Notes under the pieces: model-generated
Told to the model about the DNA's origin: nothing
The model's database searches: none
The model's input: the letters and a program-made list of their open reading frames with translations, nothing else
Program-made: the position numbers and the translations under genes
In this document: positions 8,236-63,652 of the stretch, in pieces
Numbering within the stretch: the first letter of the stretch is position 1
Layout: each line of letters opens with the position of its first letter
Source: Verrucosispora sp. WMMD573
Lineage (GTDB): Bacteria; Actinomycetota; Actinomycetes; Mycobacteriales; Micromonosporaceae
Assembly (NCBI RefSeq): GCF_027497175.1
Contig: NZ_CP114901.1
Span: 2,356,001 to 2,420,000 of the forward strand
Direction: 5' to 3'
Length of the DNA: 64,000 bases

Positions 8236-8348
8236 GCACCCCCGCCCCAGCCCTGTCGATCATGCACTTGTGGTCGCGCCATAACGGGCGGAAGGGGTGA
8301 ATCGACGACCACAACTGCATGATCGGCGGGACGGTGGGGCGGGGGTGC
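8236..8348. repeat. Nested palindrome, copy A of a dispersed family
   Basis: Outer arms GCACCCCCGCCCCA (8236-8249) and their exact complement (8335-8348) enclose inner 20-bp arms at 8257-8276 and 8306-8325 that have a single mismatch. The inner arms end in CGATCATGCA. The layout matches copies B-E elsewhere in the window: a GATCATG-type end and a C-rich left and G-rich right flank. It is not protein-coding. Confidence 0.8.
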
Positions 8349-8356
8349 GTAGGGTG

Positions 8357-8452
8357 TGGGGGTGGGGGTGGGGGTGGGGGTGGGGATGGATGTGGTGACG
8401 GTGGGGGTGGGGTGGGGATGGATGTGGTGACGGTGGGGGTGGGGGTGGGGGT
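8357..8452. repeat. G-rich microsatellite (GGGGGT runs) with a duplicated 32-bp block
   Basis: Runs of GGGGGT/GGGGT repeat on the plus strand, with enough closely spaced G tracts to form G-quadruplexes. A 32-bp block containing an ATG is duplicated, with ATGs at 8386 and 8418. Because 32 is not a multiple of three, only the second copy is in frame with the following gene. Confidence 0.8.
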
Positions 8453-8756
8453 GGTGCGGGGGGTGGAGCTGTTGGTGCGGCAGGTCAGTCACTGGCAGCA
8501 GCCACGGTGGTCGGCCGCGGCATCGGTCGGCAACGTGTCCCGGGCGGATCTGGTGCACCGGCTGGTGCAGGAGATCGCCAACCTCGCCGCGGACGCAGAG
8601 GGGCAGCCACGACGACTCGTACCCCGGCTCGACAACGACCTCGCCCTGCCCGACCAGCTCCGGGTGGTTGCCGCCGACCTACTCGCCGCGAACCCGAGCG
8701 AGGAGGCCCTGGCCCGGGCCGCTACCGAGGTGACCGCGACCCGTACCGCCCTCTAG
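8418..8756 (+). CDS. Small conserved actinobacterial protein of unknown function
   Basis: 112 residues if started at ATG 8418; a GTG further in, such as 8463, is also possible. The first 15 residues come from the G-rich repeat and are Val/Gly only, so the true N terminus may be shorter. The remainder looks like a real soluble protein. An aromatic SHWQQPRW segment leads into an amphipathic helical region ending LPDQLRVVAADLLAANP, then ATRTAL at the C terminus. I recall similar short proteins in Micromonospora but no function. It is isolated, between repeats on both sides. Confidence 0.65.
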   Translation: MDVVTVGVGVGVVRGVELLVRQVSHWQQPRWSAAASVGNVSRADLVHRLVQEIANLAADAEGQPRRLVPRLDNDLALPDQLRVVAADLLAANPSEEALARAATEVTATRTAL

Positions 8757-8800
8757 CGACCGGGCCGAACCGAGCTGCGGCGCTCCTCAGAGACCGTCGG

Positions 8801-9057
8801 CCCGCCCAACGGCCCCACGCCCGCCCAACGGCCCCACGCCCGCCCAACGGCCCCACGCCCGCCCAACGGCCCCACGCCCGCCCAACGGCCCCACGCCCGC
8901 CCAACGGCCCCACGCCCGCCCAACGGCCCCACGCCCGCCCAACGGCCCCACGCCCGCCCAACGGCCCCACGCCCGCCCAACGGCCCCACGCCCGCCCAAC
9001 GGCCCCACGCCCGCCCAACGGCCCCACGCCCGCCCAACGGCCCCACGCCCGCCCGAC
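8801..9057. repeat. Minisatellite: 13 perfect tandem copies of a 19-bp unit plus a partial copy
   Basis: The unit CCCGCCCAACGGCCCCACG repeats at exactly 19-bp steps from 8801 to 9047. A broken fourteenth copy and degenerate GCCCGACGACC-type remnants follow. There are no spacers, so it is not a CRISPR array. It lies in the 547-bp gap between the small conserved gene and the thiolase (convergent), and no gene is supported in that gap. Open frames across it are by-products of the repeat. Confidence 0.95.
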
Positions 9058-9303
9058 GACCCCTTCGGCTGCCCGACGACCCTTTTCGACTGCCCGATCC
9101 CCCTCGAGCAGTCCGACATGCGGCAAGTCGGGGTCTCCGGCCGAGCTGATGGCCCGAGTCGCCGCATGTCGCGGCCCGGTGACCGCGGCCCCGTGACGCG
9201 GCCCCCGTGACCGCGGGCCGGTGACCGCGGGCCGGTGACCGCTGGCCGCGGTTAGTGTCGGCTGCGGTCGGCCGCGCAGACCGGGGGCGGCGACTTTGTG
9301 CTG

Positions 9304-10566
9304 TCAGCTCAGGCGCTCGATGACCATCGCCATGCCCTGCCCTCCGCCGACGCACATGGTCTCCAGGCCGATGGTCTTGTCGTGCCACTGCAGGGCGTTG
9401 AGCAGCGTGCCGGTGATCCGGGCACCGGTCATCCCGAACGGGTGGCCGACGGCGATCGCGCCGCCCATCACGTTCAGCTTCTCCTCCGGGATGCCGAGCT
9501 GGCGGTACGACGGGATCACCTGGGCGGCGAACGCCTCGTTGATCTCGACCAGGTCGACGTCGTCGATGGTCATACCGGCGCGTGCGAGTGCCTGCCTGCT
9601 CGCTTCCACCGGGCCGAGGCCCATGATCTCGGGTGACAGCGCGGTGACACCTGTGGAGACGATCCGGGCCAGCGGAGTGATACCCAGTTCCTCGGCCCGC
9701 TGGGCGCTCATCACGACCACGGCGGCGGACCCGTCGTTGAGCGGGCAGCAGTTACCGGCGGTGATCCGGCCGTCCGGTCGGAAGACCGGCTTCAGCTCGG
9801 AGACCGCCGCCAGGGAGACCCCGGCTCGGGGGCCGTCGTCAGTGCTGACCACCGTGCCGTCGGGCGTGGTGACCGGGGTGATCTCACGGGCCCAGAAGCC
9901 GTCGGCGATCGCCTTCTCGGCCAGGTTCTGGCTGCGTACGCCGAAGGCGTCCATGTCGGCGCGGCTGACGTCGTACACCTGCGCGAGATTCTCGGCGGTC
10001 TGCCCCATGGCCAGGTAGACGTCGGGTAGCGCGTCCTTCTCACGCGGGTCGGTCCAGACCGGCGCGCCCGCCTCGGCACGAGCCTGGGAGCGTTCGCGGG
10101 CCGACGCGAAGCGCGGGTTCTCCCAGCCGCCGCCGAGCAGGGCCTGAGCCTCGGGCGGCAGGCCGTCGGAGCTGCCACGTGCGTAACGGGAGACCATTTC
10201 GACGCCGGCGGAGATGAAGACGTCGCCCTCACCGGCCCGGATCGCGTGCATGGCCATCCGCGTCGTCTGCAGCGAGGATGCGCAGTAGCGGGTGAGGGTC
10301 GCGCCGGGTAGGCCGTCGAGGCCCATCAGCACGGCGACCACGCGAGCCATGTTGAAACCCTGCTCGCCGCCGGGCAGGCCGCACCCGAGATAAAGGTCGT
10401 CAATCTGTCGCGGGTCGAGTTGCGGCACCTTGGCCAGGGCCGCCTGCACGATGGTGGCGGCCAGATCGTCCGGGCGGAGATCACGTAGGGACCCCTTGTG
10501 GGCCCGGCCGATGGGGGAGCGGGCGGTGGCGACGATGACGGCGTCGCGGGACGACTCAATCGGCAT
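9304..10566 (-). CDS. Acetyl-CoA C-acyltransferase (thiolase)
   Basis: 420 residues, close to usual for FadA-type thiolases. The acylated Cys95 lies in TRYCASSLQ. The catalytic histidine region GHPFGMTGAR and the C-terminal active-site CVGGGQG are present, as is NEAFA. Thiolases cleave 3-ketoacyl-CoA with CoA or run the reverse condensation. The length and sequence type favour the degradative class, but which chain lengths it uses is not visible. It is single, 85 bp from the following SGNH gene. Acyl-CoA dehydrogenase and acetoacetyl-CoA synthetase occur 35 kb away in the same window. Confidence 0.95.
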   Translation of the reverse strand: MPIESSRDAVIVATARSPIGRAHKGSLRDLRPDDLAATIVQAALAKVPQLDPRQIDDLYLGCGLPGGEQGFNMARVVAVLMGLDGLPGATLTRYCASSLQTTRMAMHAIRAGEGDVFISAGVEMVSRYARGSSDGLPPEAQALLGGGWENPRFASARERSQARAEAGAPVWTDPREKDALPDVYLAMGQTAENLAQVYDVSRADMDAFGVRSQNLAEKAIADGFWAREITPVTTPDGTVVSTDDGPRAGVSLAAVSELKPVFRPDGRITAGNCCPLNDGSAAVVVMSAQRAEELGITPLARIVSTGVTALSPEIMGLGPVEASRQALARAGMTIDDVDLVEINEAFAAQVIPSYRQLGIPEEKLNVMGGAIAVGHPFGMTGARITGTLLNALQWHDKTIGLETMCVGGGQGMAMVIERLS

Positions 10567-10651
10567 ACCGTCACGTTAACTCGCCGGTAACTAGCGGCGG
10601 AAGTTTTCGCTGGCCGGGAAATGTCACCTCGCGTCGGACGGGTAGACCCGG

Positions 10652-11455
10652 TCAGTGGTGTGGGGTTACGGCCGCGGCGGCGGCCACCGCGGGTAGCAGG
10701 GCGTGGGCCCAGACCCGGTAACCGTCGGCGGAGGGGTGGTAGCCGTCGTGACAGAAGGTGCCGGCGTCGGCCCGGAACACCGGGCCTGTCTCGGTGGCCA
10801 GGTCCACCACCGTCCCGCCGGCGTCGAGTACCGCACCGGTCTGTGCCCGGGCGACGCGGTGCCCCATCCAGCCGACGACCTGCCGCAGCGGCGACGCGAT
10901 CGCGCGTACGGCACCGAGATCCGGGCAGGTGCCGACTACGACCTCGACGCCGGCCTGACGCAGCCGGTGCACGGCCGCGCCGAGATAGGCAGCGGCCTCG
11001 GTGGGCCGGCGCATGCTGGTGACGTCGTTGGCCCCGACCAGGACGACCGCCACGTCCGGCCGCTCGCCGAGCAGCGCCCGCGCCACCTGGGTAGCCAGGT
11101 CGGTCGAGCACGAGCCGGACACACCGACGCTGGACAGGTGCACCTGACGGCCGCCCGGCCCCTCCGCGAGCAACTCCGCCAACTGCCCGCCGATGGTGTC
11201 GCCGAGCCGATCCACCCCGACGCCGAGGGCGGAGGAGTCACCGAGCAGCACCAGGCGCAGCGGTGGGGCACCGGCCCGACCGACTGTCGCCCGCAGTGCC
11301 AGGCCGAGTTCCGGCTGGGCGTAGCGGCGGTTGCGCGCCACTACGGCCTCGCCGGCGAGCACCGCGGCCCCGCCGAGTGCGCCCGCGAGGAGGGAAAACG
11401 CGGCGGTACGGGCAACCCGCACGGCGACCTGGGTGCCGGCAGACAGATTGGTCAT
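10652..11455 (-). CDS. SGNH/GDSL-type hydrolase (paralogue 2)
   Basis: 267 residues starting at ATG 11455. An N-terminal hydrophobic segment around residues 12-32 suggests a membrane anchor or signal. SGNH blocks are visible: GDSS with the nucleophile serine, GANDVT, and DGYHPSADGY with the Asp-His pair. It is 46 bp downstream of a related SGNH gene on the same strand, and both share VGTCPDLGA and the block layout, so they are tandem paralogues. SGNH enzymes are esterases, lipases or acetyl-esterases; the substrate here is unknown. The longer open frame upstream is a shadow of the paralogue. Confidence 0.9.
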   Translation of the reverse strand: MTNLSAGTQVAVRVARTAAFSLLAGALGGAAVLAGEAVVARNRRYAQPELGLALRATVGRAGAPPLRLVLLGDSSALGVGVDRLGDTIGGQLAELLAEGPGGRQVHLSSVGVSGSCSTDLATQVARALLGERPDVAVVLVGANDVTSMRRPTEAAAYLGAAVHRLRQAGVEVVVGTCPDLGAVRAIASPLRQVVGWMGHRVARAQTGAVLDAGGTVVDLATETGPVFRADAGTFCHDGYHPSADGYRVWAHALLPAVAAAAAVTPHH

Positions 11456-11501
11456 GATGCCGCCCCCACGCCGGAACCGGAACGGCCCCTGATCCGCTCG
11501 G

Positions 11502-12554
11502 TCATGAGAATCCTTCCACTGCGGGTAAGTCGACGGTGCGGGCTGGCTGCGGCGTCGGACCGACACCGAAGAATCCCCGCCGGCGCAGCTGCGCCCAACG
11601 GCCCGCCGGACCGCCGTCGCTGCCCCGGACCTGCGTACCGCTGACCTCCGTCCCGGGGTGCCGAGCCGCCTCCTGCGCGGCCTTCGGCAACGACCGTACG
11701 CCTTCGAGCCGTGTTGGCGAAGGCCTGCGTTCGGCACCGTGGCCCAGCGCCGAGAGCACCGTCGGCAACAGGGCGGCGGCGGCCGCCGCGTAGCCCTCGG
11801 CGGAGGGGTGGAATCGGTCCCAGGCGAACATCCGCCCCGGCTCGGCGGTGAACCGGGGGCCGAGTAGGTCGCCGAGGGAGACCGTCCAACCACCGGCCGA
11901 CACCACCGCGACCGTCTGCGCGGCAGCGAGCTGCCGGCTCCACCGGCGGGCCAACCAGCGCAGCGGTGGCTGGATGGGTCGGATCGCGCCCAGGTCCGGG
12001 CAGGTCCCGACGATCACCTCCGCACCGCCCGCGCGCAGTGCCCGGACCCCCTCGACGAGATACCGTACGGCCAGGGCCGGCGGGGTGCGGTTGGTGACGT
12101 CGTTGCCGCCGATGAGGATGACCGCGACCTCGGGCTCGCACTCCAGGGCCGCCTCCACCTGGAACCGCAGGCCGGCGGAGATGGCGCCCACCACCGCGAA
12201 GCGGTGCAACCGGACGGGACGCTGCAGACGCCGGGACAGGCCGGTGGCCAGCAACGCGCCCGGCGTCTCCCGGCGTCGGTGCACCCCGTAACCGGCGGCC
12301 GACGAGTCACCGAGAATGACCATGGTGATCGCGGGCCCGGTGAATTTCGCGCCGTAGACCCCGTCGCAGCGTGGTGGCGGTGCCTCGGCCATCGGAATGG
12401 TGCGCCGGGCCTGCCTCGCCTGACCGAAGAGGACACCTGTCGTCGCCGCCGCGGCCGCCACCGTGGCCCCCGTGCCGATGGCCGCGAGACGGGCCACCCG
12501 CAGGGCACGCTGCCAGCGCGGACGATCCGGTACGACGGAACCAGCGACCCCCAT
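11502..12554 (-). CDS. SGNH/GDSL-type hydrolase (paralogue 1)
   Basis: 350 residues. A hydrophobic segment at about residues 20-45 is a probable anchor. The catalytic blocks are GDSSAAGYG, GGNDVT and DRFHPSAEGY. Compared with its downstream neighbour it has an extra Arg/Pro/Gly-rich C-terminal tail of about 80 residues without recognisable domain. It is probably co-transcribed with the downstream paralogue. The genes look like an old tandem duplication, since motifs are shared but much of the rest has diverged. Confidence 0.9.
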   Translation of the reverse strand: MGVAGSVVPDRPRWQRALRVARLAAIGTGATVAAAAATTGVLFGQARQARRTIPMAEAPPPRCDGVYGAKFTGPAITMVILGDSSAAGYGVHRRRETPGALLATGLSRRLQRPVRLHRFAVVGAISAGLRFQVEAALECEPEVAVILIGGNDVTNRTPPALAVRYLVEGVRALRAGGAEVIVGTCPDLGAIRPIQPPLRWLARRWSRQLAAAQTVAVVSAGGWTVSLGDLLGPRFTAEPGRMFAWDRFHPSAEGYAAAAAALLPTVLSALGHGAERRPSPTRLEGVRSLPKAAQEAARHPGTEVSGTQVRGSDGGPAGRWAQLRRRGFFGVGPTPQPARTVDLPAVEGFS

Positions 12555-12693
12555 ACCGTGACACTAGCGCGCCTGTCTGACGCCCTGCTGTCATCGTCGC
12601 GGCGCTCCGGTGCCTGGAAAACGACCGCGCTGGGTACTTGGATGGAGGGTGTTGCGGCGGAGCGTCACGCTGCACGTGGAGAGGAGCACGACG

Positions 12694-13050
12694 ATGGCTA
12701 AGACGTTGAAACGAGGTGCCGCCTTCGTGGCCTTGGCGCGGGCGATGACCGCCGGCTCCCGGGGAGGGCCGTCGCTCGGCGCCCGGATCGGGGCGCTGCC
12801 CAGGATGATCGCGGCCACCGCGCGGGGCCAGTACGACGGCGGGCTGCGGCTTGCCATGATGACCGCCGCCACGGCGTACATCGTCTCGCCGATCGACGCG
12901 GTGCCGGAAATGTTCCTCGCCGTGTTCGGGCTGATCGACGACGCGGTGATGGTCACCTGGCTGGCCGGTTCGGTGCTCGCCGAGACCGAGCGCTTCCTGG
13001 AGTGGGAGGCACGTCGCAGCACCGTGGTCCCCGGCCACGTGGTGCCCTGA
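12694..13050 (+). CDS. DUF1232 (YkvA-type) membrane-associated protein
   Basis: 118 residues from ATG 12694, preceded by GGAGAGGAG. The core IVSPIDAVPE followed by LIDDAVMVTWL is the DUF1232 signature: a hydrophobic hairpin with YxxSPID-like residues. The function of the family is not established. The frame is open upstream, but the ribosome binding site and start of similarity favour this ATG. It is 82 bp ahead of cbs on the same strand. Confidence 0.88.
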   Translation: MAKTLKRGAAFVALARAMTAGSRGGPSLGARIGALPRMIAATARGQYDGGLRLAMMTAATAYIVSPIDAVPEMFLAVFGLIDDAVMVTWLAGSVLAETERFLEWEARRSTVVPGHVVP

Positions 13051-13132
13051 CCGACGTACCCTTGGCGGGAATTCCACCTGGTTCACCCGCCCGGCCTGGC
13101 GTGCCGGTGCCGGAGCGAAAGGGCACAACGAG

Positions 13133-14503
<1,371 letters not shown>

Positions 14504-14538
14504 CCCAACCCCCCAACCCCCACACCCTCCCAACCAGT

Positions 14539-14599
14539 GTTGATCATGAGGTTAGCGGCATCGGGGAGATCGAAAACTGCCGCCAACCTCATGATCAAC
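14539..14599. repeat. Intergenic palindrome, copy B
   Basis: 22-bp arms (14539-14560 and 14578-14599) with one mismatch and a 17-nt loop. The ends are GTTGATCATGA/TCATGATCAAC. It lies 35 bp past the cbs stop, between convergent genes, with C-rich DNA to the left and (GTGGG)n-like DNA to the right. It could also act as a bidirectional terminator. Confidence 0.85.
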
Positions 14600-14628
14600 G
14601 GAGTGGGTGGGGTGGGGTGGGGCGGGGA

Positions 14629-15138
14629 TCAGAGTTGGCGCTCGTAGCGCAGTTGGGGGGTTTGCGCGGGGCCGATCATCTCGTCGCGGGTCACCCCGGT
14701 GGGGTGCCAGCCGCCGCGCTCGTAGAAGAGGCGGGCGTGGGTGTTGTCGCGCAGCACCCAGAGGACCGCCCAGCGCCAGCCTCGCGTCCGCATCTTGGTC
14801 AGGGCGTCGACCATCAGGGCCCGGCCGACGCCGCGACCCCGCTCGGACGGCTCCAGGTGGATGGCGTTGAGCAGCCCGGTCGCCGGATCGCCCGCGTCGT
14901 CGGGGCCGAAGTAGCTGAAGCCGGCCAGGGCACCGTTCCGCTCGGCCACCGTCATCACATGGTCGGCTCGCTCCCAGGTCCATCGCTGCACCCAGTATTC
15001 GCCCATCGCCTCCGGGGTCGGATCGGCCAGCGCCTCCGCCGGCAGGAACGAGGAGTAGGCGGCGACCCGGGAACGTTGGTGCAGGGCCCCCACCGGCAGG
15101 AGATCAGTGGATCCTGCCGGACGCAGCGTGACGGTCAC
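14629..15138 (-). CDS. GNAT family N-acetyltransferase
   Basis: 169 residues, a standard single GNAT domain. Motif A with the acetyl-CoA pyrophosphate loop is seen as [10 protein letters not shown], preceded by the strand LLNAIHLEP. Motif [11 protein letters not shown], follows, with the aromatic residue typical of the family. The substrate is unknown. Its ATG overlaps the rnz stop by four bases, so it is translated downstream of RNase Z in the same transcript. Confidence 0.92.
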
Positions 15139-16064
15139 TCGACCGAGGGTACCCGTCGGGGTGGCACCTGAATCGTGGTCAGATCCTCGGCGATCACCAG
15201 ATCCCCGTCGAAGTGCCGGCGGGCCTCGTCGGCGAATCGGGCCGGGTCGGCGTACCGCTGGGAGAAGTGGGTGAGCACGAGTCGGCGTACCCCTGACTCG
15301 GCCGCCACCCGCGCGGCCTGGCCGGCGGTGAGATGCCCGACCTCGGCGGCGAGCGCGGCCTCCGACTCCAGGAACGTCGACTCGATGACCAGCAGGTCGG
15401 CGTGCTCGGCCAGCGCGTACACCCCGTCGCAGAGGCCGGTGTCCATCACGAAGGCGAACCGCTGCCCCGGCCGTGGCGTGCTCACCTGCTCCCGGGTGAC
15501 GCGCCGCCCGTCGAGGTCGAGGTGGCCGGTGCGTTGCAGCTCACCGACCGCCGGCCCGGTGATGCCGTACGCGGCCAGCCTCTCCGGCAGCATCCGGCAC
15601 CCGTCGGGCTCCACCAGCCGATAGCCGTACGTCTCGATGGGGTGCCACAGCCGGCGTGCCTCCAACGTCCCGTGCCGCAGCAGGATTCGTTGCCCGTCCG
15701 ACTCGATCGGGGTGACGGCCAGTTCGGCGGTCTCGTGGAAGGAACTGGCGTGCCGCAGCCGGGCGAAGTAGTCGGCGCCGCCGGCCGGGAAGTGCACCGC
15801 CACCGGATGCGGCACCCGGTCCAGGGACAGGCGCTGGATGGTGCCGGGCAGGCCGAGGCAGTGGTCGCCGTGGAAGTGGGTGACGCAGATCCGGGTCAGG
15901 TCGTTGGCGGTGACGCCGGTGTGCAGCAGTTGCCGCTGGCTGCCCTCGCCGGGGTCGAAGAGGATCACCTCGTCGTCCCACCGCAGCACGTACCCGTTGT
16001 GGTTGCGGGTCCGGGTGGGTGCCTGGCTCGCCGTGCCGAGTACCACCAGCTCGCGCATTGACAC
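15135..16064 (-). CDS. rnz: Ribonuclease Z (tRNase Z)
   Basis: 309 residues of the metallo-beta-lactamase fold. The zinc motif [13 protein letters not shown] is intact, as are DPGEGSQRQ near the N terminus and later metal ligands ([16 protein letters not shown]). RNase Z removes 3' trailers from tRNA precursors; actinobacterial tRNAs often encode CCA, as the one at 6957 does. Two starts are possible: GTG 16064, five bases after GGAGG, or ATG 16058. I kept the GTG. A long upstream region with a small ORF and hairpins precedes it. It is coupled to the downstream GNAT gene. Confidence 0.93.
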
Positions 16065-16088
16065 GGCCGCCTCCGGTACGGAATGAAG

Positions 16089-16152
16089 CGACCCCCGGGG
16101 CTTCCGCGCTGACGCGCGGGCCGACTGGACTGGGCCGGCACCCCGGGGGTCG
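16089..16152 (-). promoter_or_regulatory. GC-rich hairpin in the rnz leader
   Basis: CGACCCCCGGGG (16089-16100) and CCCCGGGGGTCG (16141-16152) are perfect 12-bp arms with a 40-nt loop, ending about 15 bases before the rnz ribosome binding site. In the rnz transcript it could control access to that site or terminate leader transcription. The rest of the 318-bp gap to the M42 gene contains the leader ORF at 16251-16289 and nothing else I can support. Confidence 0.5.
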
Positions 16153-16250
16153 GGTGGCTGTCGTGGTTTCGCCGCACCGCTGCCACACGGTCTCGACGAC
16201 TCTTACCGTGCCCGTCCCGGGGGACAGGCTGTCACTGTCGAGGACAGCGG

Positions 16251-16289
16251 CTAGCGGACAGCCACCTCACGAGTCCGATTGCTATACAA
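16251..16289 (-). CDS. Candidate 12-codon leader peptide upstream of rnz
   Basis: A TTG start is followed by codons for MYSNRTREVAVR and a TAG stop. An uncommonly strong Shine-Dalgarno sequence, AAAGGAGG (complement of 16300-16308), lies ten bases upstream. The ORF sits about 190 nt upstream of rnz on the same strand, with several short inverted repeats and the hairpin at 16089-16152 in between, the layout of an attenuation leader. Three of the twelve codons encode arginine. It is too short to prove from composition; the ribosome binding site is the main evidence. Confidence 0.45.
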   Translation of the reverse strand: MYSNRTREVAVR

Positions 16290-16382
16290 GTCTGGACCAC
16301 CTCCTTTCCCGTGTACCGCCACGCTATCCAGCCGCCGGCCGACCGGCAACGGATTTCGATCACACTGCCGTCGGCCCCGCTG

Positions 16383-19465: not shown

Positions 19466-19467
19466 GG

Positions 19468-21252: not shown

Positions 21253-21494
21253 GTGAGCCCATGCTGCCAGAGGATGTTGCGATTAGCCTGTTGAGACCAT
21301 GACGGTCGTGTAACAGCATTGCTAGAATCCGCGCCCCGCGATCAAGGCATTGTCATTCGGGGTCGAGCGACGTGATGTTTCGTGCCCGCCTCGTAGCACT
21401 TGTGGCGTTTGGGCAGCAGCGTTAAGTGTGACGAATGCCGCAATACGTGTCGCATCGACTCGATCACGGGTCTGCCGTCCCACGCCCACGCGGC

Positions 21495-21524: not shown

Positions 21525-21554
21525 GTCAAGGGGCGCTTGGGTGTGTCGCGCTGC

Positions 21555-22217
<663 letters not shown>

Positions 22218-23491: not shown

Positions 23492-23493
23492 GC

Positions 23494-33207: not shown

Positions 33208-33236
33208 CCCTCCCCACCCATCCTCGCCCCACCCGG

Positions 33237-33295
33237 CTGATCAAGAAGTCTGCGCCGGAGTAGAGCGCTTCCGCCGACGCAAACCTCTTGGTCAA
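33237..33295. repeat. Intergenic palindrome, copy C (diverged)
   Basis: 22-bp arms at 33237-33258 and 33274-33295 match at 17 of 22 positions. All five differences are transitions, as expected of an old copy. It has TGATCAAGA-type ends and an AGCGCT in its loop. It lies 30 bp after the GGDEF-EAL stop, between convergent genes, with C-rich left and G-rich right flanks. Confidence 0.65.
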
Positions 33296-33325
33296 CACGA
33301 GTGGGCGCGGGGGGATGGGGTCGGG

Positions 33326-49737: not shown

Positions 49738-49805
49738 ATAGACGAGTTGATACCCGTCCTCACTCAGCGTGCTGTCGCAGCTCGCCCAACCAACACCCCT
49801 CTTCC

Positions 49806-49932
49806 TCCTTTGCTCTGCTTCAACCCACGCAACAGTTACTCTCCGCAGTTTTCTGGCGCGCGAGTGTCGCCGGACCCCAACCGCGTCGTCGCAGTTCAGC
49901 GGGTTGTGCGTCGGTTGAAGCAGAGCAAAGGA
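49806..49932. repeat. 127-bp element with 20-bp perfect inverted ends
   Basis: TCCTTTGCTCTGCTTCAACC (49806-49825) is repeated in inverted orientation at 49913-49932. Partial complementarity continues inward (ACGCA/TGCGT). Its size and terminal repeats recall a MITE or a long hairpin; I could not identify a target-site duplication. It lies in the 575-bp gap at 49621-50195, which holds no supported gene. Confidence 0.75.
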
Positions 49933-50906: not shown

Positions 50907-51056
50907 CGGCGCGAACGATACGCGCCCGGCGGCCGTACTCGATGACAACGACAAGTCGGCGTACCGTCGGGTCGCAGTCAGCGTCCGCGCCGGGCTCCGG
51001 CGTAGGCTTGCCGGAGTGTCGTTCCCCACAGTCCCGCCACCGCAAGGAGTCGCCCC

Positions 51057-52202: not shown

Positions 52203-52250
52203 GGCCGGCAACGAGGCGCCCGGTCCGGGTGGTTCGGGCATGATGTCCTG

Positions 52251-53922: not shown

Positions 53923-54017
53923 CGGCCGCTCCTCTCGTCCGTGCCAGCGTACGGGGGTGCTGGTGGACACCTCGGTGCGGTGCGTGGAGCCGGGCGGATG
54001 TGCCGGGGCTGGGCAGA

Positions 54018-54081
54018 GAGATCGGGCGGCACCCCCTGCGGAACTTGAGCCGCAGACCCTCGAATGGTGCCGCCCGATCTC
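54018..54081. repeat. Nested palindrome in the divergent NUDIX/ArsR intergenic region
   Basis: Outer perfect 16-bp arms, GAGATCGGGCGGCACC and its complement (54018-54033, 54066-54081), enclose an inner 6-bp stem CTGCGG/CCGCAG (54036-54041, 54050-54055) with an 8-nt loop. It is in the 338-bp gap between two divergent genes. It could be a structured RNA or a DNA cruciform acting as a regulatory site. I see no gene in this gap. Confidence 0.7.
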
Positions 54082-54260
54082 GGGCACCCAGCGGGGCGGC
54101 ACGTTCGACGTGCGTCGCCCCCTGTGGCACGGGAAGCATGGCGGATTCACATGACGGGCGTCGAGGTCTTTTAGCTGAGGCTTAACTGACCGAGGCCGAC
54201 GTGGCCGGGTAGAGTTCGAAGGTCGCCGGGTGCCCCCTTCGCCGGGTGATGGGAGTACCC

Positions 54261-55253: not shown

Positions 55254-55270
55254 CCCACCCACCCCCGGAG

Positions 55271-55395
55271 CTGGCTCCCGTTGGAACCCCCCGGGCCTGG
55301 CTCCGTTGAAACCCACCCCCGGGGGCTGGCTCCGTTGATCATGAAGTTATTGCGCCGGAGAGCGCTCCCCGGCGGCAATAACTCCATGATCAACG
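55271..55395. repeat. Three direct repeats leading into palindrome copy D
   Basis: CTGGCTCC(C)GTTG occurs at 55271-55283, 55297-55308 and 55326-55337, 26 and 29 bp apart. The last copy merges into the left arm of palindrome D (55333-55358; right arm 55369-55395). D has one mismatch and one bulge over about 26 bp. Its ends are CGTTGATCATG, and its loop holds GAGCGCTC. Confidence 0.85.
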
Positions 55396-55461
55396 AGGAG
55401 GTGAGGGGGAGAGGGAGGGGGAGAGGGAGAGGGAGAGGGAGAGAGGGGTGGGGGGTGGGGG
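55396..55461. repeat. (GAGGGA)n microsatellite
   Basis: A purine-only run of GAGGGA-type hexamers and G tracts between palindrome D and the fbiB stop. It could be G-quadruplex forming. It lies between convergent genes and is non-coding. Confidence 0.8.
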
Positions 55462-56550: not shown

Positions 56551-57494
56551 GTCAACTCCACCGCAGCGCGGACCATCGCCGCCGTCGCCGCCTCGTCGGT
56601 CATCCGCAGTGGCACCGCGCGGACCGTCACGTCCGACACCACAGTTGCGGCATCCTCCTCGGCCACCAACCAACCGTCGAGCAGCCCGCCGGTGGCCCGG
56701 CTGCCGTACATTCCGCCGACGCCGCCAGCGGAGCATTCCACCCCGACGACCGCCAGGCAGCGGTCGGCCATGCCGCGTACCGGCGCGTCACCGATGATCG
56801 GCGAAACGCCCACCACCGGGGCGGAAGCGCCTGCCACCGCCTCGCGTAGGCCCGGTACGGCGAGGATCGGCGCGATGCTGACCACCGGGTTGCTCGGCGC
56901 GACGAGCAGCACGTCGGCGTCGGCGATCGCCTCCGTGACGCCGGCTGCCGGCTTCGCCGACTCCGCCCCCACGAAGACGAACCGGTGGGTCGGGATCTGC
57001 GCCCGGTGCCGTACCCACCACTCCTGGAAGTGGATCGCCCGCTGGCCACCGTCGATGTCGACGACCGCGTGCGTCTCCAGGCGGTCGTCGGTCGCCGGCA
57101 GCAGTCGTACGCCGGGCCGCCAGCGCGCCGCCAGCGCCTCGGTGACCTGGTGCAGCGGATAGCCGGCGTCGAGCATGGTGGTGCGAACCAGATGGGTGGC
57201 GATGTCCCGGTCACCCAGCCCGAACCAACTCGGCTCGGCACCGTACGCCGCCAGCTCGTCCTTGACCGTCCAGCTCTCGTCGACGCGCCCCCAGCCCCGC
57301 TGCGGGTCGGCACCGCCGCCGAGGGTGTACAGCACGCTGTCCAGGTCCGGGCAGATCCGCAGCCCGTGCAGCCGGAGGTCGTCGCCGACATTGACCACGG
57401 CGGTCACCTCGGCACCCACCTCGCGGGCGTACGCCCGCGCCCCCAGCAGGAACCGGGCGCCGCCGATCCCGCCGGTCAGAACCACGATGCGCAT
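56547..57494 (-). CDS. fbiA: F420 2-phospho-L-lactate (or phosphoenolpyruvyl) transferase
   Basis: 315 residues from ATG 57494. VVLTGGIGGARFLLG at the start, NVGDDLRLHGLRICPDLDSVLY, and APSNPVVSIAPIL are CofD/FbiA signatures. It joins the activated phospholactate or PEP moiety to FO, giving F420-0 or its dehydro form. It is translated just before fbiB and in the same operon. fbiC is 1.3 kb away; fbiD (cofC) is not in this window. Confidence 0.95.
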   Translation of the reverse strand: MRIVVLTGGIGGARFLLGARAYAREVGAEVTAVVNVGDDLRLHGLRICPDLDSVLYTLGGGADPQRGWGRVDESWTVKDELAAYGAEPSWFGLGDRDIATHLVRTTMLDAGYPLHQVTEALAARWRPGVRLLPATDDRLETHAVVDIDGGQRAIHFQEWWVRHRAQIPTHRFVFVGAESAKPAAGVTEAIADADVLLVAPSNPVVSIAPILAVPGLREAVAGASAPVVGVSPIIGDAPVRGMADRCLAVVGVECSAGGVGGMYGSRATGGLLDGWLVAEEDAATVVSDVTVRAVPLRMTDEAATAAMVRAAVELT

Positions 57495-57591
57495 CCGCCC
57501 ATCCTCGCCTACGTGACGCCTCCGCAACCCAGCTGCCCCGGGAGACTAGGCTCACGTCGGCATCTGTCCGCTTTCGCCCCAGGGAGAGTTC

Positions 57592-58665
57592 GTGACCAGC
57601 CCCGCCGAGCCCCCACCCACCGATCCGACCCCGGCCCGCCAGGTGACCGGGCCGCTGCGTGAACTCGTCGCCCTCGTGCTCCTGGGCGCGAACGCCGTCT
57701 TCCTCTTCGTGGGCCTGATCCGGCTACTCACCCCGCAGGGCGCGTACAGCACGGTGACCGGCCGTGCGGCCAGCTCGTTCTTCGCCTTCATCGGCGTCGA
57801 GGCGGTCGTCCTGCCGGTGCTGGCGGTACTGCTGGCCACCCATCTCGCCCCGACCGTCGGACGGGCGAAACTGATCACGCAGGTGGCACTGATCGAGTAC
57901 GCGGTAAGCGCCGTGCTGGGCGGTCTGACCCTGCTGATCTGGGTGGTCGGTCGGCTGGCCGAAGCGCAGCTCTTCGACGCGATGACCGGCCTGCTCACCC
58001 GGGTTGCCTGGGTGGCGCTGTTCGCGGCGGCCGCGTACGTGGTGTGGAGCGTGTGGCAGCGGCTCTACCACGTGCCCCGGTCCAAGCCCGAGCCCGGCCT
58101 GTACGGCACGCCGCAGCAGGGCTGGCCGCAGCCCGCAGGCCCGGGCCAGTTCGGTGGCCAGCCCGGTCACCCGGGCGGCGGCTGGGCGCCGCCTGGCCAG
58201 TCGGGTGGTTGGCCGGGCGCCGAACGATCCGCTGGCTATCCGGCCGTTCACCCCGGCTCCGGCCACCCGGGTTGGCCCACGGCCGGTCAGGCACCCGCCG
58301 CCGGTGGGCCCCCGGAGTCCCCGCACACCTGGCCGCCGCACGGTCAGCCGGCGGTGCCACCGCAGTCGGCATCGCCGTCCGCGCCGTCCGCACCGCCGTT
58401 CGGACAGCCGGCCTCGGCCGACCCGACGCAGAGCATCCCGCGCCAGGGCGACCCGGCCGGGGGTATGCCGCGCCAGGGCGACCCGGCCGGACACTCGCCG
58501 CGCCAGGGGGTCGAGCCGTCCCAGGCGATCCCGCACCAGAGCGCCGAGCCGACCCAGGCGATTCCGCGGCCGGGCGGTGGTGACGCCGGCCCGTCGGTTC
58601 CCCGGCCGGGCGACGGCGAGGCAGACCGCACCCAGCGGATCGACCCGGGCGACCAGCCCGGCTGA
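57592..58665 (+). CDS. Four-helix membrane protein with a TQxI-rich tail
   Basis: 357 residues. Membrane segments lie at about 26-44, 63-82, 100-120 and 130-155. The C-terminal 190 residues are Pro/Gly/Gln-rich and end in a repeated zone: PTQSI, PSQAI, PTQAI, then RTQRI, plus near-copies of RQGDPAGG. Such Thr-Gln motifs resemble phosphothreonine sites for FHA domains, but no kinase or FHA gene is next to it. It is divergent from fbiA, with 97 bp between starts. Function unknown. Confidence 0.78.
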   Translation: MTSPAEPPPTDPTPARQVTGPLRELVALVLLGANAVFLFVGLIRLLTPQGAYSTVTGRAASSFFAFIGVEAVVLPVLAVLLATHLAPTVGRAKLITQVALIEYAVSAVLGGLTLLIWVVGRLAEAQLFDAMTGLLTRVAWVALFAAAAYVVWSVWQRLYHVPRSKPEPGLYGTPQQGWPQPAGPGQFGGQPGHPGGGWAPPGQSGGWPGAERSAGYPAVHPGSGHPGWPTAGQAPAAGGPPESPHTWPPHGQPAVPPQSASPSAPSAPPFGQPASADPTQSIPRQGDPAGGMPRQGDPAGHSPRQGVEPSQAIPHQSAEPTQAIPRPGGGDAGPSVPRPGDGEADRTQRIDPGDQPG

Positions 58666-58771
58666 GCGAGACCGCAGGAATCGGGCCGTGCCAGGCTCGC
58701 CGTCCTCGTGGCGACGTGCGGTTGCCCACGGGGCGGGGACCGGACCGGGCCGCAGCGCATAGGCTGAGCGG

Positions 58772-61351
58772 ATGGTTGATCAGAGCGAGCGCGGGCCGGG
58801 TGACGGGGGCGTACGGCGGGCACTGCGTCGCGCCGCCGCCGGGCGGGCGCTCGACGTCGACGAGGCGTCGACCCTGCTGACCGCCCGGGGCGCGGCCCTG
58901 GAGGAACTGCTCGGCATCGCCGGTGCGATCCGTGACGCGGGTCTGCGGGACGCCGGCCGGCCCGGCGTGGTGACGTACTCGAAGAAGGTCTTCATTCCGC
59001 TGACCCGGCTCTGCCGGGACCGCTGCCACTACTGCACGTTCGCCACGGTGCCGCACCGGCTGCCGGCGGCCTTCCTCGACCGCGACGAGGTGCTCGCCAT
59101 CGCCCGGGCGGGTGCGGCGCAGGGCTGCAAGGAGGCCCTGTTCACCCTCGGTGACCGACCGGAGGAGCGTTGGCCGGCTGCCCGACAGTGGCTGGACGAA
59201 CGGGGCTACGGGTCCACTCTGGACTACGTCCGGGCCTGCGCCGTGGCGGTGCTGGAGGAGACCGGCCTGCTGCCGCACCTGAACCCGGGCGTGCTCTCCT
59301 GGGCGGAACTGCAACGACTCAAGCCGGTGGCGCCGAGCATGGGCATGATGCTGGAGACCACGGCCACCCGGCTGTGGTCCGAGCCCGGCGGCCCGCACTA
59401 CGGCTCCCCGGACAAGGAACCGGCGGTGCGGTTGCGGGTGCTCGACGACGCCGGGCGGGTCGGCGTCCCGTTCACCACCGGCATCCTGATCGGCATCGGC
59501 GAGACCCTCGCCGAACGGGTCGACGCGATCTTCGCCATTCGGCGTGCCCAGCGTGAGTACGGCCACCTCCAGGAGGTGATCGTGCAGAACTTCCGGGCTA
59601 AGCCGGACACGGCGATGCGTGGGATGCCCGACGCCGAGCTGCACGATCTCGCCGCCACCGTGGCGGTGGCCCGGGTGCTGCTGGGCCCGAAGGCCCGCAT
59701 CCAGGCCCCACCGAACCTCATCGCCGGCGAGTACGACCTGCTGCTGCGGGCCGGTATCGACGACTGGGGTGGCGTCTCACCGGTGACCCCGGACCACGTC
59801 AACCCGGAGCGTCCCTGGCCACAGCTCGACGAACTGGCGGCCCGCACCGCGGCGGCCGGCTTCACGCTCCGGGAACGGTTGACCGTCTACCCGGAGTACG
59901 TCCAGGCCGGCGAGCCGTGGCTGGACGCCCGCCTGCTGCCGCACGTGACCGCGCTCGCCGACCCGACGACCGGGCTGGCGGTCGAGGCGGCCCGCCCGGT
60001 GGGCCGGCCGTGGCAGGAGCCCGACGAGACCTTCGGCGGACGGACCGACCTGCACGCCACCATCGACACCGCGGGGCGTACGGACGACCGCCGGGGCGAC
60101 TTCGACCACGTCTACGGCGACTGGACGGAGGTCGCCGCGAAGGCGGCCGTGCCACCGGCGCGGGCGGGAGTCCACGGCGGCCCGACGCCCGAGGCGGTGC
60201 ACCGGGCCGGGACTGGCCGGCGGGGCACCGCCGGCTCCGGTGACGCCGACCTGCGCGCCGGTCTGAGGTTGGCCGCCGACGACCCGGCGGCGCTGCTGGA
60301 GCCCCGGCACACCGATGTCGCGCTGGCGCTGTTCGGCGCGGACGGTCCGGCCCTGGACGAGCTGTGCCGCACCGCCGACGAGCTGCGCCGCTCCGCCGTG
60401 GGTGACGACGTGACCTACGTGGTCAACCGCAACATCAACTTCTCCAACGTCTGCTACGTGGGCTGCCGGTTCTGCGCCTTCGCCCAGCGGGAACGGGACG
60501 CCGACGCGTACCGGCTCTCGGTGGAGCAGGTCGCGGACCGGGCGCAGGAGGCGTGGGCGGCCGGTGCCGGCGAGGTCTGCCTCCAGGGCGGCATCGACCC
60601 GAAGCTGCCGGTGACGATCTACGCCGACCTGGTCCGGGCGATCAAGGCCCGGGTACCGCAGATGCACGTGCACGCCTTCTCGCCGATGGAGATCGTCACC
60701 GCCGCCGCCAAGGCCGGAGTGCCGGTGCGAGAGTGGCTGGCGGGGCTGCGTGAGGCGGGACTGGACACCATCCCGGGCACCGCGGCGGAGATCCTCGACG
60801 ACGAGGTGCGCTGGGTGCTCACCAAGGGCAAGTTGCCGGCCGCCGCCTGGGTGGAGGTGGTCAGCACGGCCCACGAGCTGGGCATCCGGTCCAGCTCGAC
60901 GATGATGTACGGCCACGTCGACCACCCCGCGCACTGGCTGGCGCACTTCCGGGTACTGGCCGGGGTGCAGGACCGCACCGGCGGGTTCACGGAGTTCGTG
61001 GCGCTGCCGTTCGTGCACACCAACGCCCCGATCTACCTTGCCGGCATCGCCCGGCCCGGTCCGACGTGGCGGGAGAACCGGGTGGTGCACGCGATGGCGC
61101 GGGTGCTGCTGCACGGCCGGATCGACAACATCCAGTGCTCCTGGGTGAAGCTGGGCGACGCCGGCACCGCGGAGCTGTTGCGCAGTGGCTGCAACGACCT
61201 GGGCGGCACGCTGATGGAGGAGACCATCTCGCGGATGGCCGGGTCCGGTAATGGTTCGGCGCGAACCGAGGAGCAGTTGCGGGCCATCGCGGCGGCGGCC
61301 GGTCGGCCGGCGCGTAGGCGTACGACTGCGTACGGTCACCTCGCGGCCTAG
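58772..61351 (+). CDS. fbiC: FO synthase, bifunctional CofG-CofH
   Basis: 859 residues with two radical-SAM domains. The first cluster cysteines C81, C85 and C88 are in LCRDRCHYC (CofG half). The second, C561, C565 and C568, are in VCYVGCRFC (CofH half). The fused form is typical of Actinobacteria. It makes the deazaflavin FO from tyrosine and a ribityl pyrimidine. A short linker region near residues 430-500 is poorly conserved in appearance. With fbiA and fbiB it covers most F420 steps. Confidence 0.96.
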
Positions 61352-61510
61352 CGTCGAACCTTCGCCCGCCGCCGGACGTACCTGTCGATGCCGGCGGCGG
61401 CACGGCGAGGACCGCCGCCGGCACCCCCCGCTCGGAGGCTCGGCCGGTCGCGCGGGTTGCGCCGCCGCGCCGACCGCTACCGCTGGCGGGGGCCGGCCTC
61501 GGTCGTCGGG

Positions 61511-61768
61511 ATGCGGACCTACACCGGACGGCACTTGCTCGGTCGGGAGCTTGAGGTGGGCCGCGCCCGATCGGGACGGCGGCACGCGTACCCACTGGGT
61601 CGTACGCTCCGGGACGTCACCTTCCACAGTGCCGTCTATCCGGACCACACGGCGGGTGTCTATACCGTTTGGTGGGACAGTGACACGCCCGGCGGGTCGG
61701 TCACCGTGACCGGTGGCGTGGCCGCCGAATTCGCCTTACCGGCCAGCTTGACCGCGCCACCCGACTGA
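61511..61768 (+). CDS. Small protein of unknown function with a TTA codon
   Basis: 85 residues if begun at ATG 61511; ATG 61388 would add 41 Arg/Pro-rich residues that look like noise. The visible sequence, TYTGRHLLGRELEVGR and VTVTGGVAAEFALP, is consistent with a small beta-rich protein, and the codon third positions look coding. Codon 76 is TTA (61736-61738). No known domain. It follows fbiC by 159 bp. Confidence 0.5.
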   Translation: MRTYTGRHLLGRELEVGRARSGRRHAYPLGRTLRDVTFHSAVYPDHTAGVYTVWWDSDTPGGSVTVTGGVAAEFALPASLTAPPD

Positions 61769-62093
61769 CCGCTGGAGCTTCTGCCCGCCGTGTCCCGTCC
61801 ACAATGTGGGCGGGACGCGGCGTCGTTCACCCGCTCGGCGGGCAGGGTTGGCGAAGTCGGGATAGCCTTGCCCGTCAAGATCAACGGATCTTGGTCCAGC
61901 GGCTCTCTCCACGTTGATGCGAAGTCGGATCGCTCCGGCGGCGCTCGGTGCGCCACGGGAGAAAACTCGGGCAACTCGCCGGGGAGGGCGTTACTCGGCC
62001 GGGGTCTGAATCGATAGGGCAGGGCGAGACCGGGTGGTACGGACGACCGTCCGGGAGGCGTGTCGGGAGGGCGACTCCATTATCAAGTTTGGC

Positions 62094-62123
62094 TTGACGG
62101 CGCACGCATTACACGCGTGTAAT
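62094..62123 (+). promoter_or_regulatory. whiB promoter with overlapping 16-bp palindrome
   Basis: A -35-like TTGACG (62094-62099) and a -10-like TGTAAT (62118-62123) are separated by 18 bp. The perfect palindrome ATTACACGCGTGTAAT spans 62108-62123, covering the end of the spacer and the -10. It is 118 bp before the whiB start, a good place for control by a dimeric factor. The rest of the 472-bp gap (61769-62240) contains no gene I can support. Confidence 0.55.
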
Positions 62124-62240
62124 TTGAATGGGGCTGTTCGCACGGAACGCACGATAACGGGACCGGACGGACAAAAGCACGCCTTTCGCGTGGGGGGTTG
62201 CAGCGGCGACGACGCCGGTGCGCGACAAGGAGGCAACTGA

Positions 62241-62498
62241 ATGGACGGCCAACTCGAGGCGGCCGACCTGCTCGGAAACGCGCCGGAGTGGCAGGAGCGG
62301 GCCCTGTGCTCGCAGACCGATCCGGAGGCGTTCTTCCCCGAGAAGGGCGGCTCGACCCGCGAAGCGAAGCGCATCTGCTCGCGGTGCGAGGTCAAGACGG
62401 AATGCCTCGAATACGCTCTCGGCCACGACGAGCGGTTCGGGATCTGGGGTGGACTCTCCGAACGGGAGCGGCGCAAGCTCAAGCGCCGGGCGGCCTGA
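62241..62498 (+). CDS. whiB: WhiB family iron-sulfur transcriptional regulator
   Basis: 85 residues. Four cluster cysteines are at C23, C46, C49 and C55, and the loop GIWGG is followed by the basic tail RERRKLKRRA. The segment EKGGSTREAK and the length match Streptomyces WhiB and mycobacterial WhiB2 (WhmD), which control septation and sporulation with WhiA. It binds a [4Fe-4S] cluster and partners with the primary sigma factor. ATG 62241 follows a likely RBS AAGGAGG. As I remember it, its position next to a zincin gene, DUF3499 and the F420 genes recalls the whiB2 region of mycobacteria. Confidence 0.95.
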   Translation: MDGQLEAADLLGNAPEWQERALCSQTDPEAFFPEKGGSTREAKRICSRCEVKTECLEYALGHDERFGIWGGLSERERRKLKRRAA

Positions 62499-62574
62499 GT
62501 CGACGTGGGGCGGGGCGGTTGGGGACCGTCCCCACCCGGCGCGGTCAAGGTCGTTCCACCCGGCCCGGCGGTGA

Positions 62575-63024
62575 TCAGGCCAACTCGTCCGGATCGACGC
62601 CGAGCAGGTTCGCGACCTGCTCGATGATGACATCGTGGACCAGATCGGCGAGATCCTCCCGGTCCATCGCCCGAAATTCCAGCGGTCGCCGGTACAGCAC
62701 GATCCGGGGCGGAACCTCTTGGCGGCCGGGTCGCCCGGGTAGCAGCCGGGCCAGCGGCACCTCGCCATCCTCCAGCACGTCGGAGTCGTAGACGTTCAGG
62801 TCGGGCGGGACGTCCTCGACGGCGAACTCCACCCCGGCCAGCTCCTTGGCGAACCGACGCTCCAGCGTCTCGACGGTGTCCAGCACCAGATCATCGAAGA
62901 TCTCCGCCTTGGTCCGCGCCAGCGGCACGGTGGCCGGCACCAGCCGCCCACGCAGACCGCGGCCGTGCCGGTCGCGGTGCGCCCGCCGGCCGGTGCCGGG
63001 GCGGCGGTTCTCCGGGCTCGTCAT
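62575..63024 (-). CDS. Metallopeptidase-family (Zincin_1-like) protein lacking HExxH
   Basis: 149 residues from ATG 63024. The family is recognised by LAGVEFAVEDVPPDLNVYDSDVLEDG and the final helical part. Where active relatives have a HExxH zinc helix, here one reads HDVIIEQVANLLGVDP, so both zinc histidines and the catalytic Glu are lost or displaced. It is probably a non-enzymatic fold. It is convergent with whiB and divergent from DUF3499. Confidence 0.85.
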   Translation of the reverse strand: MTSPENRRPGTGRRAHRDRHGRGLRGRLVPATVPLARTKAEIFDDLVLDTVETLERRFAKELAGVEFAVEDVPPDLNVYDSDVLEDGEVPLARLLPGRPGRQEVPPRIVLYRRPLEFRAMDREDLADLVHDVIIEQVANLLGVDPDELA

Positions 63025-63176
63025 GAGCCAAAGAGTAGCTTCCGGCCCGCTGCTGGCCGCGTCAGCGCCGAACTCGTGGCGCGTTGCGGCCACGGACGAG
63101 AAATGTGATCACCAAGACGGGCGTGTCGTAACGCGAAGCGGTGCGCCGGAGCCGGTAATGGAGATACCCTGCGCCG

Positions 63177-63554
63177 GTGAGGTCACCACGGCGCTGCTCC
63201 CGCAACGGCTGCCCCCGGCAAGCGGTCGCCACGCTGACCTATGTCTACAACGAGTCGACCGCCGTGGTGGGCCCATTGGCCGCCTTCGCCGAGCCGCATA
63301 CGTACGACCTCTGTGAGCCGCACGCCCGCAGCCTGACTGCTCCGCGCGGCTGGGAGGTGGTCCGGCACGAGGGCGAGTTCGAGCCGCCGCCGCCGACCAC
63401 GGACGACCTGGTGGCCCTGGCCGAGGCGGTTCGGGAGGCCGCCCGCCCCGCCCCCCGTCCACCTCAGGACGACCAGAACCACCCCTCCGCACCCCCCGCC
63501 GCCTCCCCTTCCTCCCGCCGCGGCCACCTCCGCGTAATCCCCCCCACCCACTAA
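63177..63554 (+). CDS. DUF3499 protein
   Basis: 125 residues. The N-terminal domain has CSRNGC and LCEPHA, a probable zinc-binding knuckle, with ATLTYVYNESTAVVGPLA between, the DUF3499 pattern. A disordered Pro/Ser-rich tail follows. It is restricted to Actinobacteria, as far as I know, and of unknown function. It starts at GTG 63177. The same neighbour order with whiB2-like genes in mycobacteria supports the call. Confidence 0.92.
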   Translation: MRSPRRCSRNGCPRQAVATLTYVYNESTAVVGPLAAFAEPHTYDLCEPHARSLTAPRGWEVVRHEGEFEPPPPTTDDLVALAEAVREAARPAPRPPQDDQNHPSAPPAASPSSRRGHLRVIPPTH

Positions 63555-63587
63555 CCCACCCCCTCCGCTACCCGGCGTCGCTGTCGT

Positions 63588-63652
63588 GCGTTGATCATGA
63601 GGTTAGCGGCGTTTTTGATCTCTAGAAATGCCGCTAACCTCATGATCAACGC
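63588..63652. repeat. Intergenic palindrome, copy E (perfect)
   Basis: Perfect 23-bp arms at 63588-63610 and 63630-63652 with a 19-nt loop. The ends are GCGTTGATCATGA and the arm interior GGTTAGCGGC. The left arm shares 21 bases with copy B at 14539. It is 34 bp after the DUF3499 stop, with C-rich left and (GTGGG)-like right flanks. The further gap to 63857 contains nothing else I recognise. Confidence 0.9.

Follow-up and report, generated by a model that had tools for sequence, protein, structure and literature searches.

We describe here a dispersed family of palindromic elements, first noticed in a stretch of 64,000 nucleotides of Verrucosispora sp. WMMD573 (hereafter the window; bases 2356001-2420000 of the 6,495,827-base (6.50 Mb) single-contig genome, contig G000:C1 in our numbering). 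The element is a hairpin-forming unit, usually of exactly 61 bp, that has been copied to unrelated places, stands preferentially just past the ends of convergent genes, carries a conserved loop motif, is flanked by DNA of strongly skewed composition, and has been exchanged at orthologous sites for versions with other arms. We consider it reasonably probable that these elements constitute a Micromonospora family of non-autonomous copying palindromes kept as two-way 3′-end or terminator hairpins, the terminator or 3′-end role being a putative one suggested by sequence comparison. Relatives are designated below by G followed by a number, G197, G225, G278 and G281 being the close relatives of the WMMD573 genome.

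The family unit is bounded by GTTGATCATGARGTT...AACYTCATGATCAAC. A pair of arms of some 21 nt, complementary to each other and starting with GTTGATC, encloses a loop in which a conserved motif is placed off-centre. In 118 two-ended copies from other records the span was 61 bp in 91 cases, 62 bp in 14, 60 bp in five and another length in eight; variants cover 60-76 bp, the longer ones being those of Geodermatophilus (72 bp) and Dactylosporangium (75-76 bp). Six arm families were distinguished (F1, GATCATGAGGTTAGCGGC; F2, GATCATGAAGTTRTTG; F3, GATCAAGARGTT; F4, GATCATGCASTTGWGG; F5, GATCTTGCASTTTCGG; F6, GATCTTGRTGCGG), and the GATC ends are nearly invariant. Among 183 loops, 51 contain GACACGCC and 26 contain GAGATCAA, versus none of the shuffled loops in either case. 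The offset of the class B motif, CGGCGTGTCG, hardly varies (of 30 loci, 24 have a matched length of 39, four of 40 and two of 38), and the motif combined with the ATG end occurs in 85 of 151 genus genomes, the reversed control giving 0 in the rows listed.

The family proved larger than the five copies of the original prediction. A genome-wide search with a covariance model trained on 32 copies of the WMMD573 genome gave at least 81 places after the 150 strand-wise matches listed had been collapsed; three of these lie within the window, where the two other elements are diverged variants. Only five of the 81 places listed fall in the third of the chromosome that extends from 3.69 to 5.76 Mb (p 2e-8), and therefore the listed population is uneven; 14 fall in the last 0.5 Mb. 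The pattern GTTGATCATGNNGTT occurs 62 times on the forward and 65 times on the reverse strand of the whole genome (control pattern, 0 and 0), and among 100 of its matches listed, 78 form 39 pairs, each spanning 61 bp. Two-ended matches exactly 61 bp long numbered 22 in 864 kb and 0 when one 400-kb stretch was shuffled twice by a Markov model. Within the window, TTGATCATG with at most one mismatch was matched 14 times, with 2.65 expected and as many in 0 of 100 shuffles.

Copying of the unit is most apparent in G324, in which 12 places, picked for alike loops from 17 listed, were examined: four hold an identical 61-mer and eight hold near variants, and flank identity among the four identical copies (0.64) is not above that with other copies (0.66). 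One convergent spacer that is the site of a G324 copy was compared in 15 species (G324 and 14 from the best-matching of 159). Six species hold an element there (F2-type arms in four, the F1 type in G266 and F3 of the AAG type in G077), one a degenerate remnant, two another hairpin-like sequence, and six a compact empty spacer. Empty counterparts of occupied sites, which the original prediction had proposed to look for, thus exist in relatives, at this spacer in six species, G197 among them, and elsewhere in G225. Identical 61-mers with unrelated flanks, together with the empty sites, indicate that the 61 bp are copied precisely as a unit, and with the family switching described below they support the earlier suggestion of a non-autonomous mobile family. 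Two places that seemed to hold a lone arm are full or diverged copies. The four identical G324 copies were found to have no direct repeat of 2-9 bp abutting their ends, the junctions of occupied and empty sites being too diverged to read.

The position of the elements relative to genes was assessed using a codon-usage gene caller made for this analysis. The 27 copies detected in 864 kb comprise 15 between convergent genes, nine between tandem genes, two between divergent genes (one of them at the window edge) and one overlapping a called gene. In the same 864 kb, the 367 spacers of at least 90 bp are convergent in 58 cases, tandem in 189 and divergent in 120, so that convergent spacers are strongly enriched among the 26 intergenic copies (15/26 versus 58/367, p 3.5e-7). 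At 118 loci in other species, 53 elements were convergent, 33 tandem, seven divergent, nine inside a called gene and 16 unclassed. Moreover, of 44 tandem sites, 32 have the class B loop in the same sense as the genes and 12 in the opposite one (p 0.004; sense/antisense, 5/4 in the earlier loci, 11/1 and 14/3 in later sets, 2/4 in G324); looser matching in the first set gave 10 sense and two antisense, with one G278 place included in duplicate (loci L256 and L289, which overlap). This bias is a hint of action in RNA for class B. As in intrinsic terminators, a stable predicted RNA hairpin follows the stop codon (fold z -2.8 to -13.6 in the five window elements), and as in Rho-dependent terminators the RNA ahead of the end point would be C-rich and G-poor. 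The idea that the palindromes may act as bidirectional terminators agrees with their position, with the convergent enrichment and with their replacement by ordinary hairpins (see below).

To follow single sites through evolution, flanks were mapped between the WMMD573 genome and its four close relatives (flanks 90-96% identical) using a family scanner limited to the six arm families, which misses some weak copies. Sites with unmapped flanks were dropped; 12 of the 27 WMMD573 elements of the scanner, none of them one of the window's five, could be mapped in a close relative. Mapping also failed for the B sites 3029765, 3083613, 3109134 and 3365410. With doubles removed, the 26 comparisons at these 12 sites gave the same family in 17, a different family in eight and none in one; this last case (G278 at 3208363) is by eye a diverged AAG copy, and therefore the site is occupied in all 26 comparisons, with a switched family in nine and with none empty. 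Mapping in the reverse direction gave 17 same, eight different and 0 none. At 3232711, three arm families occur among four close species. The comparison with G248, whose flanks are about 77-91% identical, gave 0 same, three different and five none (n = 8); there, by eye, an ordinary GC-rich hairpin replaces the element at 1520431 and 1573407, and one spacer is compact. Likewise by eye, at 1516125 G246, G200, G251 and G255 hold unique GC-rich hairpins, with a T-rich tail in G251, and G205 and G077 are without any element of this family. Copies at identical positions in all relatives, which the original prediction had named as speaking against it, were thus encountered for the WMMD573 copies in the closest relatives, but one third of these differ in family, and elsewhere sites are empty.

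These site histories bear on the possibility that the elements are purely selfish repeats of the REP (repetitive extragenic palindrome), REPIN (REP doublet forming a hairpin) or MITE (miniature inverted-repeat transposable element) kind, having no job and being found past genes since insertion elsewhere harms. Their patchy occurrence beyond the genus, with variable copy numbers there, would fit this explanation (across the order, under strict filters, the covariance model had matches in 52 of 200 genomes and 15 of 60 genera, own genus included), as would the species dialects, the identical copies in G324, the empty sites in relatives and the low number of copies in divergent spacers (2/27). 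On the other hand, none of the 26 ortholog comparisons for WMMD573 copies is empty although loops diverge fast (arms differ by 7% and loops by 24% in 31 pairs of orthologous same-family copies), the class B loop follows transcription in 32 of 44 tandem sites, and ordinary hairpins alternate with elements at the same site. We regard a purely selfish nature as unlikely, if still worth serious attention, and favour non-autonomous elements that are copied and would be kept as 3′-end hairpins.

A further peculiarity is the composition of the flanks. On each strand, the 75-100 nt ahead of the hairpin are C-rich and G-poor, the skew (C-G)/(C+G) being 0.50-0.69 within 45 nt of the hairpin and lower, about 0.2, at a distance of 120 nt (54 flanks). 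The mean skew was 0.62 in 34 element-bearing 3′ regions versus 0.04 in 355 regions without an element, and values above 0.5 were reached in 22/34 and 4/355, respectively. A scan of 1.89 Mb of five genomes by skew only, which is incomplete in that it recovers three of the five window elements, gave 42 peaks, of which 39 are palindromes with GATC or ATCTTG-type arms, one belongs to another palindrome family (2405848) and two are without an element (1795487, and 241870 in G225). Furthermore, skew is bimodal among 661 long palindromes, and the 39 rows (some doubled) with C-rich left and G-rich right flanks are all elements of this family save the other family. The flanks had been proposed to extend the symmetry of the palindromes. 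This holds for base composition; as a pairing stem, left and right flanks match each other hardly better than they match the flanks of other copies (79/135, mean rank 9.3 of 20 with 10 expected by chance, p 0.02), and therefore the symmetry is mainly compositional. An extended stem was accordingly set aside as a weak effect at most.

The skew could also have arisen by mutation and not by selection, if polymerase stalling at the hairpin leads to slippage on the nascent strand, which is C-rich, so that CCCAC-type repeats grow on both sides. The skew is indeed about equal on both sides regardless of gene orientation, and the flanks of orthologs align poorly though they are alike in composition. 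In addition, the occupied versions of one convergent spacer have flanks from <20 to >100 nt across species, the long ones made of CCCAC-like repeats; as these lengths vary around a precise 61 bp, the skewed flanks seem to grow around the element. Yet most other long palindromes of these genomes lack the skew, and two copies in 140 kb of G080, outside the bacterial family, are without consistent skew. For the flanks, such a mutational origin is plausible, though somewhat less likely than not. The idea that insertion requires C-rich and G-rich DNA to be present beforehand on the two sides was dropped, since occupied spacers alternate with compact empty ones. Skew kept without an element was seen in one case, in G225.

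Several observations weigh against the notion of copied hairpins that are retained as two-way terminators. No T-run follows the hairpin, the downstream flank being G-rich, and a second short hairpin was present in two of 15 element-bearing convergent spacers versus 26 of 66 others (p 0.07, a trend only). The class B bias is uneven (sense in 2/6 in G324 and, for the earliest set, in 5/9), and no sense bias is seen for class A loops (six versus seven, in a set with the same doubled G278 place). At 33 sites in tandem spacers, the skew was 0.51 on the side facing the start of the next gene and 0.45 on the other, and selection for a one-way terminator would not yield such two-sided skew. Retention is not absolute either: G225 is empty, with the skew still present, at a site occupied in G197 (87573), and at the convergent spacer compared in 15 species G197 lacks an element where G225, G278 and G281 have one. 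In G281 there is also no counterpart to the palindrome at 1413806, which has skewed flanks and belongs to none of the six arm families. As to the means of copying, no transposase was recognised by eye between five close copy pairs (one of them read in part), a comparison made without a genome-wide search. Searched with one F1 copy, neither the 50,697 phage records nor the 72,556 plasmid records gave a match, and viral contigs yielded none to the exact ATG-type pattern; carriage by phages or plasmids is unsupported by these searches.

The elements occur in two dialects, named ATG (GTTGATCATGNNGTT) and AAG (GTTGATCAAGNNGTT), which were found in 87 and 90 of 101 genus genomes, respectively. ATG/AAG matches, summed over both strands, were 127/6 in WMMD573, 30/77 in G197, 2/85 in G077, 0/62 in G233, 0/54 in G248, 44/0 in G221 and 52/0 in G253; many genus genomes are mixed, e.g. 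G215 with 23 ATG and 26 AAG. Most genus genomes have at least 27 covariance-model matches. Among 80 named rows listed for the pattern of the element, 59 are Micromonospora and the rest mostly Hamadaea, Dactylosporangium and Verrucosispora, and outside the bacterial family no element with these arms was found in 140 kb of G157 or 120 kb of G070. Genome-wide dialects and near-invariant GATC ends, reminiscent of the dialects of uptake sequences, would fit elements that are bound by a protein acting on DNA in the nucleoid, in segregation or in uptake recognition, in which case the dialects would track the protein and the hairpin would be incidental. What argues against this is that the arms stay complementary in their variable part: 95.7% of the cells are paired, and between orthologs, over 31 pairs, changes affect both sides at 13 arm positions, with 5.1 expected under independence, and one side at 67; the pairs share species, and therefore these changes are not independent events. 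Moreover, the orientation of the class B loop tracks transcription, and the 78 matches paired at 61 bp among the 100 listed are not single sites. Protein-binding sites with an incidental hairpin appear improbable. The same data refine the original claim that stems differ between copies and yet pair with themselves. The pairing is confirmed; many independent compensations are not, as all 69 double changes are within six of 21 pairs and the interiors mostly represent a few arm families.

Arms and loops do not always travel together. The WMMD573 element at 1513900 combines F2 arms with an A loop, and the loop at this site stands in opposite orientations in different species. At 3232711, an A loop is enclosed by F1 arms in WMMD573 and G278 and by F3 arms in the G197 ortholog. 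The loop is not kept at other switched sites, e.g. 1520431 in G197 and 1521531 in G281. A different reading, rather unlikely in our opinion, would be a copying system of a new kind, in which a host-wide population of modular hairpins exchanges arms and loop separately (both arms changing together while the loop stays, for which 3232711 in G197 would be an example), a genus factor other than a RAYT (REP-associated tyrosine transposase) maintains it and rewrites terminators throughout the genome into a new dialect, and the C-rich and G-rich flanks are made by each hairpin itself.

For the copied terminator hairpins that we favour, the following scheme can be proposed. The unit copied would be the palindrome itself, of 61 bp (60-76 in variants), and some enzyme or repair process, which in WMMD573 would not be a RAYT, would copy it to new places, most often directly downstream of the stop codons of convergent genes. 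There it could take over from an ordinary hairpin terminator, and one arm family could supplant another, either by overwriting it or by inserting anew after its loss. The hairpin and the C-rich approach on each strand would then be kept, ending or trimming transcripts that arrive from both sides, possibly with Rho loading on the C-rich approach. If so, the family would illustrate in nature how copying DNA can occupy the places where transcription stops and bring about switches there. The 160 genus genomes available for the work on gain, loss and switching are enough to track these events at single sites, and the family would make palindrome copying without a RAYT, and the recruitment of copied repeats as terminators, testable. 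The exchange of arms versus loop and the hairpin-centred skew are questions for laboratory Micromonospora.

All five elements claimed in the window are present, none with an assigned strand, and their spans could be made exact. Element 1 (8255-8327, 73 bp) is a long variant with F4 arms, GTCGATCATGCASTTGTGG (RNA fold z -5.5). Element 2 (14539-14599, 61 bp) has F1 arms, GATCATGAGGTTAGCGGC, and a class A-like loop, GGAGATCGA (z -8.6), and lies between convergent genes with stops 35 and 29 bp away; its C-rich left flank (14464-14538, plus strand) and G-rich right flank (14600-14674, plus strand) have skews of 0.60 and 0.59 over 75 nt, the others being alike with varying strength. Element 3 (33236-33296, 61 bp) belongs to a diverged AAG dialect, with F3 arms, GATCAAGAAGT, a class C loop, AGAGCGCTTCC, and the weakest RNA fold of the five (z -2.8). 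Element 4 (55334-55394, 61 bp), with F2 arms, GATCATGAAGTTATTGC, and a class C-like loop (z -9.0), has convergent genes with stops 80 and 67 bp away. Element 5 (63590-63650, 61 bp), at the window edge, has F1 arms and a class A loop, TTGATCTCTA (z -13.6). All five had been placed between genes, three of them convergent; three indeed have convergent neighbours and stand 28-80 bp beyond a stop codon, one stands between tandem genes, 79 bp beyond a stop codon, and element 5 is unclassed because of its place at the edge. With Rfam 15, only tRNA and the actinobacterial small RNA Ms_IGR-5 (16083-16314, minus strand, 91 bits) scored above gathering in the window, both away from the elements; around element 2, seven matches at E <=1 (top E 0.002, a microRNA precursor model) were all far under gathering.

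Some neighbouring sequences may also be mentioned. A second dispersed palindrome family, TTTGCTCTGCTTCAACCCACGCAACAG...TTGAAGCAGAGCAAAG with arms of about 26 nt, has a copy at window positions 49806-49932, where the C-rich and G-rich flanks are weaker, and occurs also near G000:C1:3156760. Near the G225 ortholog of 1573777 (G225:C7, L226-L235) is a MITE-like stretch bounded by GGCCCTGTGTCGAAGTCC inverted ends, which was not seen in the matching stretches of WMMD573, G281 and G197. The DnaA-box-like sequence TTATCCACA adjoins the element at G000:C1:1624678 and its orthologs in G281 and G248. Outside the bacterial family, at about 1031834 of G080:C1 (L268), one such palindrome is apparently nested in a second set of GATC ends.

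No published account of the palindromes was found, by the sequence GTTGATCATG or by topic, in titles and the opening parts of abstracts. In REPs and REPINs, a conserved tetranucleotide adjoins the foot of the hairpin; no such tetranucleotide is present here, as flank columns 1-20 of 135 copies vary and show only the C/G bias. REPINs are intergenic palindromes with inverted arms around a variable spacer, forming species-specific populations (PMC8049555). The designation of the elements as REP-like is therefore apt in form, i.e. intergenic position, two inverted arms, a variable spacer and tens of copies. It fails in mechanism, as the Y1_Tnp/RAYT domain (PF01797) had 0 matches in WMMD573 (control positive in 5/14) and is absent from G197, G225, G278, G281 and G248, G324 not being included in that search; RAYT-driven REPs are thus ruled out for these six genomes. 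PF01797 occurs in 28 of 101 genus genomes, some element-bearing species carrying one (G201, with one protein and 78 matches, and G238), and G282 has seven such proteins and 0 matches to either dialect. The conserved loop motif, the skewed flanks and the family switching at fixed sites are further differences from the REP/REPIN-RAYT system.

Like MITEs, the elements are short and non-autonomous, have terminal inverted repeats and are copied as a unit; unlike them, the unit is mostly inverted repeat, no flush direct repeat of 2-9 bp was found at the four identical copies, and no autonomous partner was seen, a genome-wide search for one not having been made. Uptake sequences occur as many short single words per genome, and their inverted pairs have a terminator role at gene ends. 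Those of Neisseriaceae and Pasteurellaceae form dialects per species (PMC3630211). Inverted pairs at gene ends and species dialects recall our elements, which differ in forming about 100 paired 61-bp units with a conserved loop; as to uptake as such, the likeness is limited to dialects. Finally, intrinsic and Rho-dependent terminators share with the palindromes a hairpin just past stop codons and a C-rich, G-poor approach on each strand, whereas the palindromes lack a T-run and occur as sequence-identical copies at unrelated genes.

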